A stretch of 21,880 bases of DNA from positions 1 through 21,880 of IMG/VR virus record IMGVR_UViG_3300045999_005449. One strand, written 5' to 3'. This DNA is from a virus. This document shows positions 450 through 11,558 of the stretch, in pieces (the stretch's first letter is position 1; each line of letters begins with the position of its first letter). Made by a program: the position numbers and the translations under genes. A model generated the notes under the pieces. The model did no database searches, was not told the DNA's origin, and saw nothing but the letters and a program-made list of their open reading frames with translations.

Positions 450-1115
450 TCATTCTAATCTTATTGATCCAATTACTAGAGCTATTCCTGTAATCTCATT
501 TTTTGGCACATCAAAAGCTTCATACTCCTTATCTTCAGAAATCATTGTGAGATAACCTTCTGTTTTGCTTTTCTTCACTCTTTTCAAAAGAATCCCTTGC
601 TCACGAGTTGCCACAACGTGAATTTCATTCCATTGAATAAATGAGTTCTCTCTCACAATCGTACAAGCAACCATATCACCAGGTTGATACCTTGGAAGCA
701 TTGAATTTCCTCTCACTGGACAAATAAAGTCAACTTTCTTGTTTTTGAAAAGTGGTATGTCATAGTAGTTGGTAATGTTCGACTGATCTATTGCAAAATC
801 ACCTGAACCAAAACCACCAATTGCCTCAATATCAACAGCAGGAATTAAGTTACGAACATTTGGAGTATTTGTCTCAATTGGAACCTTTTCAGTCGGTTTT
901 TTTATCATTTCACCCTTTCCAGTAAGAAGCCATTCAGGGTTTAAATCTCGATATTTATCTAGTATTATTCTTAGATTTTCAACACTAAAACTACTTCCAC
1001 TGTCTAAAAAACCATTACTGAAGCTAGTTTCTTTGTAAAATTTATTCTTGCTAATATCTTTAAAATCAAGATATTGAATAATTTTTTGTTTGTCAGTTGA
1101 GATTTTTATCGACAT
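450..1115 (-). CDS. Phage repressor, HTH plus S24 (LexA/CI-like) peptidase domain
   Basis: A 221-residue repressor. Residues 8-70 form the N-terminal DNA-binding region, ending in NPEWLLTGKGEM, a tail common in Bacteroidetes XRE-type phage regulators. The C-terminal half has the S24 signature: RGNSM with nucleophile Ser138, followed by PxxxPGD, and the general-base Lys178 in GILLKRV. A flexible glycine-rich hinge (AIGGFGSG, about residues 98-105) is where self-cleavage would be expected. Known S24 repressors cleave themselves when RecA is activated and so release the prophage. It is transcribed away from the early operon, and a palindrome at 1148-1162 sits between the two starts. It takes the place of Mu c, although Mu c itself is not an S24 protein. 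The recognition helix is not clear by eye. Confidence 0.92.
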   Translation of the reverse strand: MSIKISTDKQKIIQYLDFKDISKNKFYKETSFSNGFLDSGSSFSVENLRIILDKYRDLNPEWLLTGKGEMIKKPTEKVPIETNTPNVRNLIPAVDIEAIGGFGSGDFAIDQSNITNYYDIPLFKNKKVDFICPVRGNSMLPRYQPGDMVACTIVRENSFIQWNEIHVVATREQGILLKRVKKSKTEGYLTMISEDKEYEAFDVPKNEITGIALVIGSIRLE

Positions 1116-1503: not shown

Positions 1504-3480
1504 ATGGCAGCTTACGAATATTACAATCAAGTGCTTTGTGTCAATGTAAATGAATTGATCGAAAAACAAATATTTTCATTTTCTCATTATAAACAACTTG
1601 TACATAGGAGTTTCCTAAATGTCATTAGACGCGGTGGGAATGGTCGCACAGCATTAGTTGAATTTTCGTCCATCAAACGTGAAGACATCAAAGGTAAAAT
1701 CATTCAAATGTTTGGTGATCCAAAAGAGACAGCACAAAAAACAATCTTTGAATCTTACTTAAAACCTGATACTGATGCAGCTGCTTATTTCTCCAGCTTC
1801 AGAAAATCAAATGGTAAAGCGCTCACTTTCGAGAAACAAAAAGAATACGTTACTAATGCAATTATCTTAAATGCAATAGATACAGTACTTATCAATAACC
1901 TATCAAATAAACGCAGACTAACCGGGAATAAAACTCGCATTTGGGAAAACATAAGCAATGCGATTAATCAATTACCTTCTAAACAGTACACACATTCAAT
2001 TCCCGGTAATTATAGAAGTGTTAAAAGAGTCTATGAGAAATTCAAGGCTGAGGGTTTCACTTCTTTGGTTCATGGTGGTTTGGAAAACGACAATCGTAGA
2101 AAAATCTCAGGTGATATTGCAGATTTCCTTCTAGCAAATTACTGTTTGCCTACCAAACCACTTGTTCCAACAGTTCTAGCAATGTATGACAGCGTAAGAA
2201 TTGATAAAGGTTGGCCCACACTTTCAGAATCAGCAGTTCAATTGTATTTAGATCAACCTGAGATTAAAAGATTATGGGTTTTGGCTCGACATGGCAAAGA
2301 TGAATATTCAAAATCATTCGGTCATAAAATCAAACGTGATAGAGCTGACTGGTTCCCGAATGCATATTGGGCTATAGATGGAACAAAACTAGACTGGGTT
2401 CATTACTTGGATGTTGTTACAGGAATGGCTGCTAAATTGAAAATTAACCCTGTGTTTGATGTTTTCAGTGAAAAGATTATTGGTTACTCCCTTTCAGAAT
2501 CAGAAGATCACACAGACCATTTTACAGCGCTAAAATCTGCAATGAATACAGCGCAATCTAGACCATACAAATTGACTTATGATAATCAATCAGGTCACAA
2601 GTCAGCAAGAATGCAAGAGTTGTACGACAGCATCATTGCTAAAGAAGGTGGTGTTCATCACCCAACTAGAGCTTATGCAAAATCAAATCCAGCTGAGCAA
2701 ATCTTCAACCGCTTACAACAGCAAGTGATTTCTACATTTTGGTTCTCAGACAAACAAGGTGTACGAGTGAGAGACATGAACAATGTAATGAATGTTGATT
2801 TCTTGAAAGCTAACAAACATTTGCTTTTGTCGAAAGATGAATTAGTAAGAGCTTGGGAAATGGCAGTTAAAATGTGGAACGAAGCTAAACATCCACTTTT
2901 AGAATGCACACGCAATGAAGCTTATGCTCAGCAAGCGCCTTTAAGCGAATCAGTTGATTATATGGACCTGGTGAATATGTTCTGGGTGAATGAAACCAAA
3001 TCAATTACTTATGAAGGTGATGGTTTGACAATGAAGATTGCAGGACAGCGCTATATGTTTGAGGTACTTGATGAAAATTCAGCAATTGACCTTGAGTTTA
3101 GAAAGTTCAATACAGGTAAAAAGTTCATTGTTCGCTATGATCCTGAACACTTAGACAAATATGTTCAACTGTTAGAACTTGATGCACAAGGAAACAAATC
3201 CTTTGTAGCACTTGCAGAACCAAAAAGAGCGCACCAGGAGATTCCAGTTTTAATGAAAGAAGGTGATAAGAGCAAATGGCAAAAAGACTTTGAAGTTCGC
3301 GATTTAGAATATCAAAGAGACCTTTCAGAAATTGAAGCATTACGCCAAAGAACAGGAATCACACCTGAGAAACTAATCCAAGATCAAAACCTATCCATCA
3401 AAATGGGTGGTAAGCTTCCAAAGGTACTTAGAACCGAAGTTGAAAGCGAAGAAATCAACATTTATGACTTAATGAAATAA
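1504..3480 (+). CDS. MuA-like DDE transposase
   Basis: A 658-residue transposase close in length to Mu A (663 residues). The catalytic RNase H-fold core is visible. The first Asp is D292 in WAIDGTKLDW, the second is D360 in LTYDNQSGHKS, and the Glu is E398 in AKSNPAEQIFNRL, giving the D-D-E triad of the retroviral integrase/MuA superfamily. Residues 1-280 would hold the end-binding helix-turn-helix domains, and residues 500-570 a beta-rich region like the MuA non-specific DNA-binding barrel. The last 90 residues are charged and helical, and would be where MuB and ClpX contact MuA in Mu. It would cut and join the phage ends to target DNA and replicate the phage by transposition. The MuB-like gene follows after 8 bases. 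Confidence 0.95.
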   Translation: MAAYEYYNQVLCVNVNELIEKQIFSFSHYKQLVHRSFLNVIRRGGNGRTALVEFSSIKREDIKGKIIQMFGDPKETAQKTIFESYLKPDTDAAAYFSSFRKSNGKALTFEKQKEYVTNAIILNAIDTVLINNLSNKRRLTGNKTRIWENISNAINQLPSKQYTHSIPGNYRSVKRVYEKFKAEGFTSLVHGGLENDNRRKISGDIADFLLANYCLPTKPLVPTVLAMYDSVRIDKGWPTLSESAVQLYLDQPEIKRLWVLARHGKDEYSKSFGHKIKRDRADWFPNAYWAIDGTKLDWVHYLDVVTGMAAKLKINPVFDVFSEKIIGYSLSESEDHTDHFTALKSAMNTAQSRPYKLTYDNQSGHKSARMQELYDSIIAKEGGVHHPTRAYAKSNPAEQIFNRLQQQVISTFWFSDKQGVRVRDMNNVMNVDFLKANKHLLLSKDELVRAWEMAVKMWNEAKHPLLECTRNEAYAQQAPLSESVDYMDLVNMFWVNETKSITYEGDGLTMKIAGQRYMFEVLDENSAIDLEFRKFNTGKKFIVRYDPEHLDKYVQLLELDAQGNKSFVALAEPKRAHQEIPVLMKEGDKSKWQKDFEVRDLEYQRDLSEIEALRQRTGITPEKLIQDQNLSIKMGGKLPKVLRTEVESEEINIYDLMK

Positions 3481-10490: not shown

Positions 10491-10511
10491 AACAAATCAT
10501 TTTCAACGGAA

Positions 10512-10541
10512 TTTGATTTTTAAAAAAAAGTTGTATGTTTG
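10512..10541 (+). promoter_or_regulatory. Strong Bacteroidetes-type promoter of the non-coding RNA
   Basis: TTTG (10512-10515), 18 bases, then TATGTTTG (10534-10541) match TTTG and TAnnTTTG exactly. This is the best promoter match I see in the window. Transcription would begin at about 10546, which is where the long 5' pairing arm of the predicted RNA begins. Confidence 0.7.
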
Positions 10542-10688
10542 TCGTGCAATCATACTTCAGATGAAAATCTGAATTTAATTTTTACGATAAGTCGTTGCCT
10601 TTATGGGTAACTCGTCCGAAAGGCTTGTATCTATCTCTCTGAGGTATGATTGCAACCCTAAGGAGGCAACGGCGCATACAACTTTTTT
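10524..10688. repeat. 14-bp perfect inverted repeat flanking the RNA
   Basis: AAAAAAGTTGTATG (10524-10537) and CATACAACTTTTTT (10675-10688) are perfect inverted copies bracketing the RNA. The left arm includes half of the -7 box, so RNA started at the local promoter lacks it, while read-through RNA from upstream would form this outer stem followed by a T-run and might terminate. No target duplication was seen that would make it a transposable element. Confidence 0.7.
10545..10688 (+). ncRNA. Predicted structured non-coding RNA, about 145 nt
   Basis: There is no open frame in this stretch, but the pairing is strong. 10545-10560 pairs with 10639-10654 over 16 bp with one G-U (arms TGCAATCATACTTCAG and CTGAGGTATGATTGCA). 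Inside are three smaller elements: TCAGAT-GAAA-ATCTGA (10557-10572, GAAA loop, competing with the last pairs of the long stem); ACGA/TCGT (10584-10595); and GTTGCC/GGGTAAC (10594-10611). CGTTGCCT (10593-10600) can instead pair with AGGCAACG (10664-10671), giving a pseudoknot or switch. A T-run lies at 10683-10688. It matches no RNA family known to me. Confidence 0.6.
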
Positions 10689-10691
10689 AAA

Positions 10692-10925
10692 ATGCAAATA
10701 GAAAAAGAAAGTATCCTAATGACTCCGGAAAGGATTATTAGAGAAATTGTCCAATGGGATGACCCGGACAAGATGAGGGAAAACCTCAAAGAAATGTTTA
10801 TCGCTTTTTATTACCTGCATGATTGTCCAGGAGAAGAATGGAAAAGCGAAATAGCAGGCACTTATCAAACCTTAGATAAGGCACTCAAACAAATGTCTCC
10901 CTTTAAATTAATCGAAAAAAATTAG
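10692..10925 (+). CDS. Hypothetical protein downstream of the RNA
   Basis: A 77-residue helical protein (TPERIIREIVQWDDPDKMRE, then FIAFYYLHDCPGEEW). Not recognised. The ATG at 10692 is three bases after the T-run of the RNA element, so its expression may depend on read-through or structural rearrangement. An alternative in-frame ATG at 10719 would give 68 residues. It is followed after 3 bases by the antirepressor gene. Confidence 0.55.
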   Translation: MQIEKESILMTPERIIREIVQWDDPDKMRENLKEMFIAFYYLHDCPGEEWKSEIAGTYQTLDKALKQMSPFKLIEKN

Positions 10926-10928
10926 ATC

Positions 10929-11558
10929 ATGACAACACAAAATTTAAAATCGTCAAATTTGAGTAAAATCTCAATTATCGCAGTTGAGCGCGATGAAAAC
11001 AATAATCTATTTGTTGATGCAAGAAAATTACATCAAAAGTTAAATGTTAAAACAAGATTTAATGACTGGATTGAAAGAAGAATTGAAGAATTTGATTTTC
11101 AGGAAGGTTTGGAGTTTTACTCAAATTTGAGTAAAACCTCAAAAGGTTCTAAAGGAGGTCGTCCTACTATTGAGTATCAATTAACTATCTCAATGGCGCA
11201 AGAGTTATGTATTTTAGATAATTCAGAAATTGGAAAATCAATTCGATTATACTTACTTCAACTATTGAATGAAAAGAATAATCCTTTGAGTGTTTTGGAA
11301 GGTGTTCCTTTTCTAACTGTAAATGGTCGAAAATTGTATTGTTATAGAGAAATTCAACGCCTGTTAGGTTTCTCAACCAAAAGTAGTATTAACAATGTTC
11401 GTAGAAGGTTTGCATCTCAACTTTACATTTTTGAGCGAATAGCATACATTACAGAAGAATACGTACGTTTAATGTTCAGTCGCGCAGCTGTTAGAATTGA
11501 ATCAAAACTTTGTATTGCTGCACCTGAGGTCATAACAAATCAATTATCAATATTTTAA
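10929..11558 (+). CDS. AntA/AntB-type antirepressor
   Basis: A 209-residue antirepressor. Residues 18-110 form the AntA/AntB domain: FVDARKLHQKLNVKTRFNDW, IERRIEEF, then GGRPTIEYQLTISMAQELCI and a final helix with SIRLYLL. Residues 118-209 form a second domain with a repeated DNA-binding-like layout (TVNGRKLYCYREIQRLLGFS). In other phages, AntA proteins bind the repressor and lift repression. Here the target would be the S24 repressor at 450-1115. Two near-identical 22-base repeats, one inside a 24-bp palindrome, lie within its 5' part and both encode SNLSK[IT]S. Confidence 0.88.
   Translation: MTTQNLKSSNLSKISIIAVERDENNNLFVDARKLHQKLNVKTRFNDWIERRIEEFDFQEGLEFYSNLSKTSKGSKGGRPTIEYQLTISMAQELCILDNSEIGKSIRLYLLQLLNEKNNPLSVLEGVPFLTVNGRKLYCYREIQRLLGFSTKSSINNVRRRFASQLYIFERIAYITEEYVRLMFSRAAVRIESKLCIAAPEVITNQLSIF
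10953..10974 (+). repeat. Direct repeat copy 1 inside the antirepressor gene
   Basis: TCAAATTTGAGTAAAA, then T, then CTCAA. It differs from copy 2 (11121-11142) at only one of 22 positions, and contains the palindrome TCAAATTTGA and a TTGAG/CTCAA hairpin with a six-base loop. It encodes SNLSKIS. Confidence 0.75.
11114..11142 (+). repeat. 24-bp perfect palindrome and repeat copy 2 inside the antirepressor gene
   Basis: 11114-11137 is a perfect palindrome made of GTTTTACTCAAA and its exact reverse complement. It overlaps copy 2 of the repeat (11121-11142), which lies exactly 168 bases (56 codons) after copy 1. It may be an operator, an RNA hairpin or a recombination substrate. Confidence 0.75.

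Follow-up and report, generated by a model that had tools for sequence, protein, structure and literature searches.

A probable C4-type antisense RNA locus upstream of the antirepressor operon in a Mu-like phage of Bacteroidota

In phages P1 and P7, RNase P processes the C4 RNA on the 5' side of its stem, and the RNA acts in trans and blocks translation of the icd-ant mRNA; in this way, superinfection is prevented and lysogeny is maintained (PMC5320573, PMC12197685). The sar RNA of phage P22 is an antisense RNA that represses antirepressor translation (PMC12197685). In the annotation of the P1 record, the parts of the module follow each other in the order promoters, a1 (TTGACAG), b1 (GTTAGTGC), C4, a2 (TTGACAG), b2 (GTTAGTGA), icd and ant1. 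The processed, trans-acting RNA of such a locus measures approximately 77 nt. Rfam also holds the c4-2 RNA (RF02944, clan CL00128), and its clan is that of the C4 antisense RNA. The locus described here is very probably a C4-type antisense RNA locus, that is, a Bacteroidota variant of the P1 immI module (c4-icd-ant).

The window, which is the whole stretch of 21,880 nucleotides that was analysed, is a virus record of 21.9 kb and belongs to a Mu-like phage of Bacteroidota, namely, of Flavobacterium-type bacteria. By its terminase, the nearest annotated phage is Winogradskyella phage Peternella_1 (44% identity). A DUF3164 protein is also encoded in the window; the early operon runs rightward, with the AntA antirepressor followed by one more small ORF at its end, and the portal and terminase genes lie on the strand opposite to this operon. 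The RNA lies directly 5' of a small ORF and the antirepressor on the same strand, as in a C4-type locus. This small ORF of 77 aa gave zero matches in Pfam and PHROG searches and shows weak similarity to the 95-aa ORF of locus L034 (E 2e-5). The features of the window are as follows.

450-1115, minus strand: S24-type repressor, presumed partner of the antirepressor (PF00717, E 2.6e-13).
1504-3480: transposase-like ORF.
10512-10515, plus strand: TTTG resembling a -33 element, at N18 spacing to the -7 box; unconserved among homologues and therefore weak.
10534-10541, plus strand: -7 box TATGTTTG of a Bacteroidota TAnnTTTG promoter, with conserved TAnnTTTG.
10545-10561, plus strand: arm A, the upstream target copy (comparable to P1 a1/b1), at or adjoining the predicted transcript start; 17-bp covarying pairing with A'.
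10556-10573, plus strand: GAAA-loop hairpin (loop 10563-10566; stem 10556-10562/10567-10573).
10591-10673, plus strand: C4-2-like core, with closing stem 10591-10600/10664-10673, inner pairing 10605-10608/10655-10658 and CCGAAAGG hairpin 10616-10623.
10638-10654, plus strand: A', the antisense segment, at the position of b'/a' in C4; complementary to A and, family-wide, also to the downstream start codon region.
10692-10699, plus strand: B, the start codon region ATGCAAAT of the 77-aa ORF, a partial copy of the beginning of A (TGCAA is common to A and B).
10692-10925, plus strand: 77-aa ORF from the ORF list, at the position of P1 icd.
10929-11558, plus strand: AntA/AntB antirepressor (PF08346, E 7e-22; PHROG Ant).

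Promoters of Bacteroidota carry the -7 consensus TAnnTTTG at a set spacing to the RNA start. The 5' end at or near arm A is a prediction from this consensus and this distance. An exact TTTG-N18-TATGTTTG promoter, to which a sequence-only reading of the window had pointed, is present; on its own, however, the motif is not significant (three TTTG-N17-21-TAnnTTTG matches in the window vs 1.9 expected), and it becomes convincing only by comparison. In all 47 of the 47 analysed copies found with R1, the covariance model of the RNA used for the genome searches, TAnnTTTG stands at the same place, 2-5 nt 5' of arm A. The variants mainly differ in the two free positions (TATG, TACG, TAAG, TATC and others, each followed by TTTG), and the -33 TTTG is present in few copies. 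Since TAnnTTTG is constant while nn varies across the 47 copies, the feature kept at the box is the -7 consensus and not a pairing. These results support the proposal that the structured RNA has its own promoter and that its predicted 5' end coincides with the pairing arm.

The arm itself, first described as 16 bp long, proved real; 10545-10561 and 10638-10654 form 17 pairs, one of them G-U. As a helix it scores 39, vs 19.8 +/- 2.7 and a maximum of 28 for shuffles, and folding of 10515-10700 and of 10546-10691 gives z values of -7.6 and -3.7, respectively. The hairpin with a GAAA loop was likewise confirmed, and it occurs in 14 of 14 close homologues, often with a GNRA loop; the bases of its 5' strand are also the last ones of arm A, so that this hairpin and the full A-A' duplex cannot form together. 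An 8-bp pairing of 10593-10600 with 10664-10671 had been described as an alternative or pseudoknot pairing. It exists as part of the 10-bp closing stem, which is supported by covariation. The hairpin at 10594-10611, with which it was said to compete, is possible in the window, but the covarying stem takes the same bases. The RNA core contains no listed ORF, as the sequence-only reading had stated, and the 77-aa ORF begins only at 10692.

For the A-A' pairing, covariation was scored on an alignment that was not fitted to the structure, and for the closing stem, the alignment was anchored by flanking motifs. In A-A', 15 of 17 pairs have changed on both sides, and 94.5% of cells are paired; the covariation score is 0.800, vs 0.239 +/- 0.033 for shuffled alignments and at most 0.17 for slid controls. 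Relatedness is preserved by the slid controls, not by the shuffles. The closing stem is paired in 98.6%, with a covariation of 0.975 vs 0.21 +/- 0.04 shuffled. Arms that vary in homologues without compensation would have spoken against a structured RNA, and the double-sided changes at 15 of the 17 pairs are the opposite of this.

A perfect 14-bp outer inverted repeat, 10524-10537/10675-10688, had been overlooked in the sequence-only reading, and its 5' arm overlaps the promoter. The repeat is the point in favor of a DNA-level element, in which the inverted repeats would be a transposition, replication or regulator site and no RNA would be made. This is highly improbable, since only 6-7 bp of the repeat are left in close homologues and none in distant relatives, whereas the GNRA loops, the tolerance of G-U pairs, the covariation and the directional linkage to the downstream start codon indicate RNA. 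As a part of the RNA, this outer stem was attractive in the close homologues and was rejected, as distant ones keep only the promoter consensus; the stem TTGTCG/CGAYAA was rejected in the same way.

No exact DNA match to the element was found in viral contigs, and the matches that similarity searches of phage and plasmid records returned were all short and without significance. The first homologue came from a contig found via its transposase (L007), where a 66%-identical copy lies just 5' of a KilA-N-like gene. A DNA pattern derived from the window and L007 copies then retrieved 14 distinct copies from virus contigs and genomes, the window copy being one of them. Pattern matches at L019, L021, L024 and L036 lie in unrelated sequence and look like chance. 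With R1, copies were found in 47 of 399 Flavobacterium genomes, in 5 of 150 genomes of a Crocinitomicaceae family and in 9 of 395 genomes drawn from the phylum, and phages and genomes of Flavobacteriia yielded more than 45 copies. The weaker R1 matches that were read are true copies, in which the promoter box is kept together with both A and A', the stem and the copy at the start codon downstream; the L079 copy looks degenerate. The genes 3' of homologous loci are of antirepressor type (AntA, KilA-N, Bro-N, Rha), and for many copies in Flavobacterium chromosomes, the sequence read beyond the small ORF shows no antirepressor.

Several of these loci have features of their own. One 42-kb contig (G478:C80) carries three RNA copies, L076, L080 and L081, whose different arms match different start codons, as if three separate specificities coexisted. 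In many Flavobacterium chromosomes, among them those with L053, L055, L058, L061 and L067, the RNA lies 5' of a 91-93-aa ORF, and the sequence that was read showed no antirepressor; at L061, another such ORF follows approximately 0.7 kb further on. Such an RNA and ORF could form a stand-alone antisense RNA/small protein pair. Adjoining the C4-type RNA, L050:144-226 matches the Rfam RT-17 RNA barely above the cut-off (40.6 vs 40.4 bits). In a related Mu-like contig (L006:17173-19475), a reverse transcriptase-like ORF stands beside ORFs with similar ends, an arrangement that, judged by eye, resembles a diversity-generating retroelement.

The beginning of A (its first 5-9 nt) is repeated in the great majority of copies, where it stands at or immediately 5' of the start codon of the following ORF. 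In L027, for example, A is TGCTAGAAA and the ORF start is ATGCTAGAAAAA; the corresponding sequences in L017 are TGCAACAA and ATGCAACAAGAG. From copy to copy, changes in A and A' go along with changes in the start codon region: the fit of A' to its own start region is 17.1, vs 12.8 +/- 0.43 when start regions are permuted among copies, and 0 of 5000 permutations reached it. The match in the window is among the weakest (UGCAA, a mismatch and two more pairs; rank 25 of 30). A downstream site resembling b2 did not emerge, as the 3' half of A is not enriched there.

In a narrow search, positions 10592-10674 of the window matched RF02944 with 23.4 bits (E 0.0044). The 79-position model aligns over its full length, including the closing stem, the inner ACCC pairing and the hairpin with the GAAA tetraloop. 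The curated cut-off of RF02944 is 41 bits, and the window lies below it; four relatives lie above it, namely, L055 (57.2 bits), L058 (53.6 bits), L067 (41.7 bits) and G008 (L032; 44 bits). RF01695, the C4 antisense RNA of P1/P7, gave no match. Through the full-length sub-threshold match and the relatives above threshold, the RNA, which had been called undescribed, is recognized as a divergent relative of the Rfam c4-2/C4 antisense RNAs. The suggestion of a 6S-like decoy or another host-directed small RNA, which had only the sequence-only reading and the long bulged stem in its favor, is extremely improbable: the Rfam 6S families gave zero matches at the gathering cut-off or at E up to 10, the RNA is strictly linked to the start codon of the ORF that follows, with A, A' and B changing together, and the architecture is that of P1 immI.

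Twelve loci of c4-2 matches in Flavobacterium chromosomes, found independently of R1, were also read. In most of them, a target copy follows a TAnnTTTG box that is exact or nearly so, and a second copy stands just 5' of the ATG of a 77-aa-type ORF. This second copy matches a' (TAGGA/TCCTA) and the b' loop, as with loop CTCTTGCA and target TGCAAGA. The window family looks like a c4-2 variant with the a and b sites merged into a single arm of 10-20 nt; its target, instead of being split into a2 and b2 ahead of the start codon, is placed on this codon or just 5' of it. Because the window copy falls below the c4-2 cut-off and is without b2, the RNA, which is real and functional-looking, is best filed as C4-type and c4-2-like rather than as a strict c4-2 member. 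A similar design without a c4-2 match was seen in Peternella_1 (L015:19460-19635, minus strand), with the box TATATTTG, an A of TGTACGATAATAAATATT paired with AATATTTATTGTCGTACA over 18 bp including one G-U, and a KilA-N start ATGTACGACAA that is complementary to it over 10 nt. In this cultivated phage, the element may be a C4-type RNA that has diverged very far or arisen by convergence.

The C4-type reading thus draws on the full-length c4-2 match with relatives above the cut-off, the covariation of A-A' and of the closing stem, and the fit of A' to its own start region, as well as on the P1 order of parts, the R1-independent c4-2 loci, the antirepressor-type genes downstream and the published C4 mechanism. 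Against it stand the score of the window itself (23.4 vs 41), its weak A'-target match, the lack of a b2-like site and the many Flavobacterium chromosomal copies with no antirepressor in the sequence read. As had been proposed, the RNA adjoins the 77-aa ORF/antirepressor operon and probably controls it, and hence lysis/lysogeny. In the most likely mechanism, A' prevents the small ORF/antirepressor operon from being translated, and A serves as a built-in decoy. The promoter at 10534-10541 would start a transcript at arm A, which would fold a C4-2-like domain presenting A' and run on into the 77-aa ORF and the AntA antirepressor. As the anatomy and the covariation show, A' can pair either with A or, family-wide, with the start codon region of the downstream ORF. 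By analogy with P1, the C4-like form, probably after removal of the A leader, would block translation initiation of the small ORF, and with it that of the antirepressor, in cis and in trans; the prophage would be kept repressed, and the cell would be immune to superinfection. In a fresh precursor, pairing with A may keep A' inactive, so that the operon would be on until enough processed RNA accumulates.

The energies of the two folds also bear on this mechanism. When the A-A' and C4 folds were forced on 24 copies, with pseudoknots ignored, they lay less than approximately 4.5 kcal/mol apart in most copies, the exceptions being L007, L055 and L078. This near equality, the overlap of A with the GAAA hairpin and the lack of a terminator, by eye, between the RNA and the ORF are consistent with a leader switch that works only in cis, in the manner of a riboswitch or attenuator; A would be the anti-antisense, A' the antisense and B the start site, and the RNA would respond to a ligand, a protein or translation and never be processed to a trans-acting form. 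Such a switch is unlikely, as the core is a relative of C4, which in P1/P7 is processed and acts in trans (PMC5320573), and no sign of a separate ligand-binding core is seen beyond the C4 fold. Returning to the C4-type antisense RNA, we can only tentatively suggest a three-strand switch, in which the continuous A-A' duplex of 10-20 bp and the C4 fold have evolved as two near-isoenergetic states of the precursor that exclude each other, and the upstream target copy is a decoy that times the antisense RNA or makes it self-reinforcing. If this is true, mature RNA that binds A on new transcripts would free A' and turn them into the repressing form, which would be an RNA-based memory of lysogeny.

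These findings extend lysogeny control of the P1 immI type to Mu-like and other phages of Flavobacteriia, and they give the Rfam c4-2 model a concrete target in the start of the ORF that follows. In addition, a1 and b1 of P1 are annotated only as "putative", whereas their equivalent here is conserved by covariation in many diverged copies; for this reason, it becomes possible to test directly why an antisense RNA should carry its own target.

Based on the results presented above, the regulator is of an already known kind, the C4/c4-2 antisense RNA, and the window RNA is a variant of it, not an unknown RNA. The order in the window (promoter, A, C4-like core with A', B, 77-aa ORF and AntA) matches that of P1 immI, and CAACCC in the antisense region and AUGGG in the core are common to this RNA and the C4 of P1/P7. 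Like P22 sar, it would act by antisense control of antirepressor translation; in PMC12197685, neither a C4-type fold nor a duplicated target is described for sar. The c4-2 loci of Flavobacterium also have the promoter box, the upstream target copy and the copy before the ATG. The Rfam model leaves out arm A and the target. The C4 of P1/P7 uses separate 7- and 8-nt sites, while the window family has one continuous A-A' duplex of 10-20 bp. In the window, moreover, A lies directly at the predicted RNA start, b2 is lacking, and the promoter is of Bacteroidota type. Judged from the sequences, what is new relative to P1 is this continuous duplex, near-isoenergetic with the C4 fold, and a target on or adjoining the start codon.
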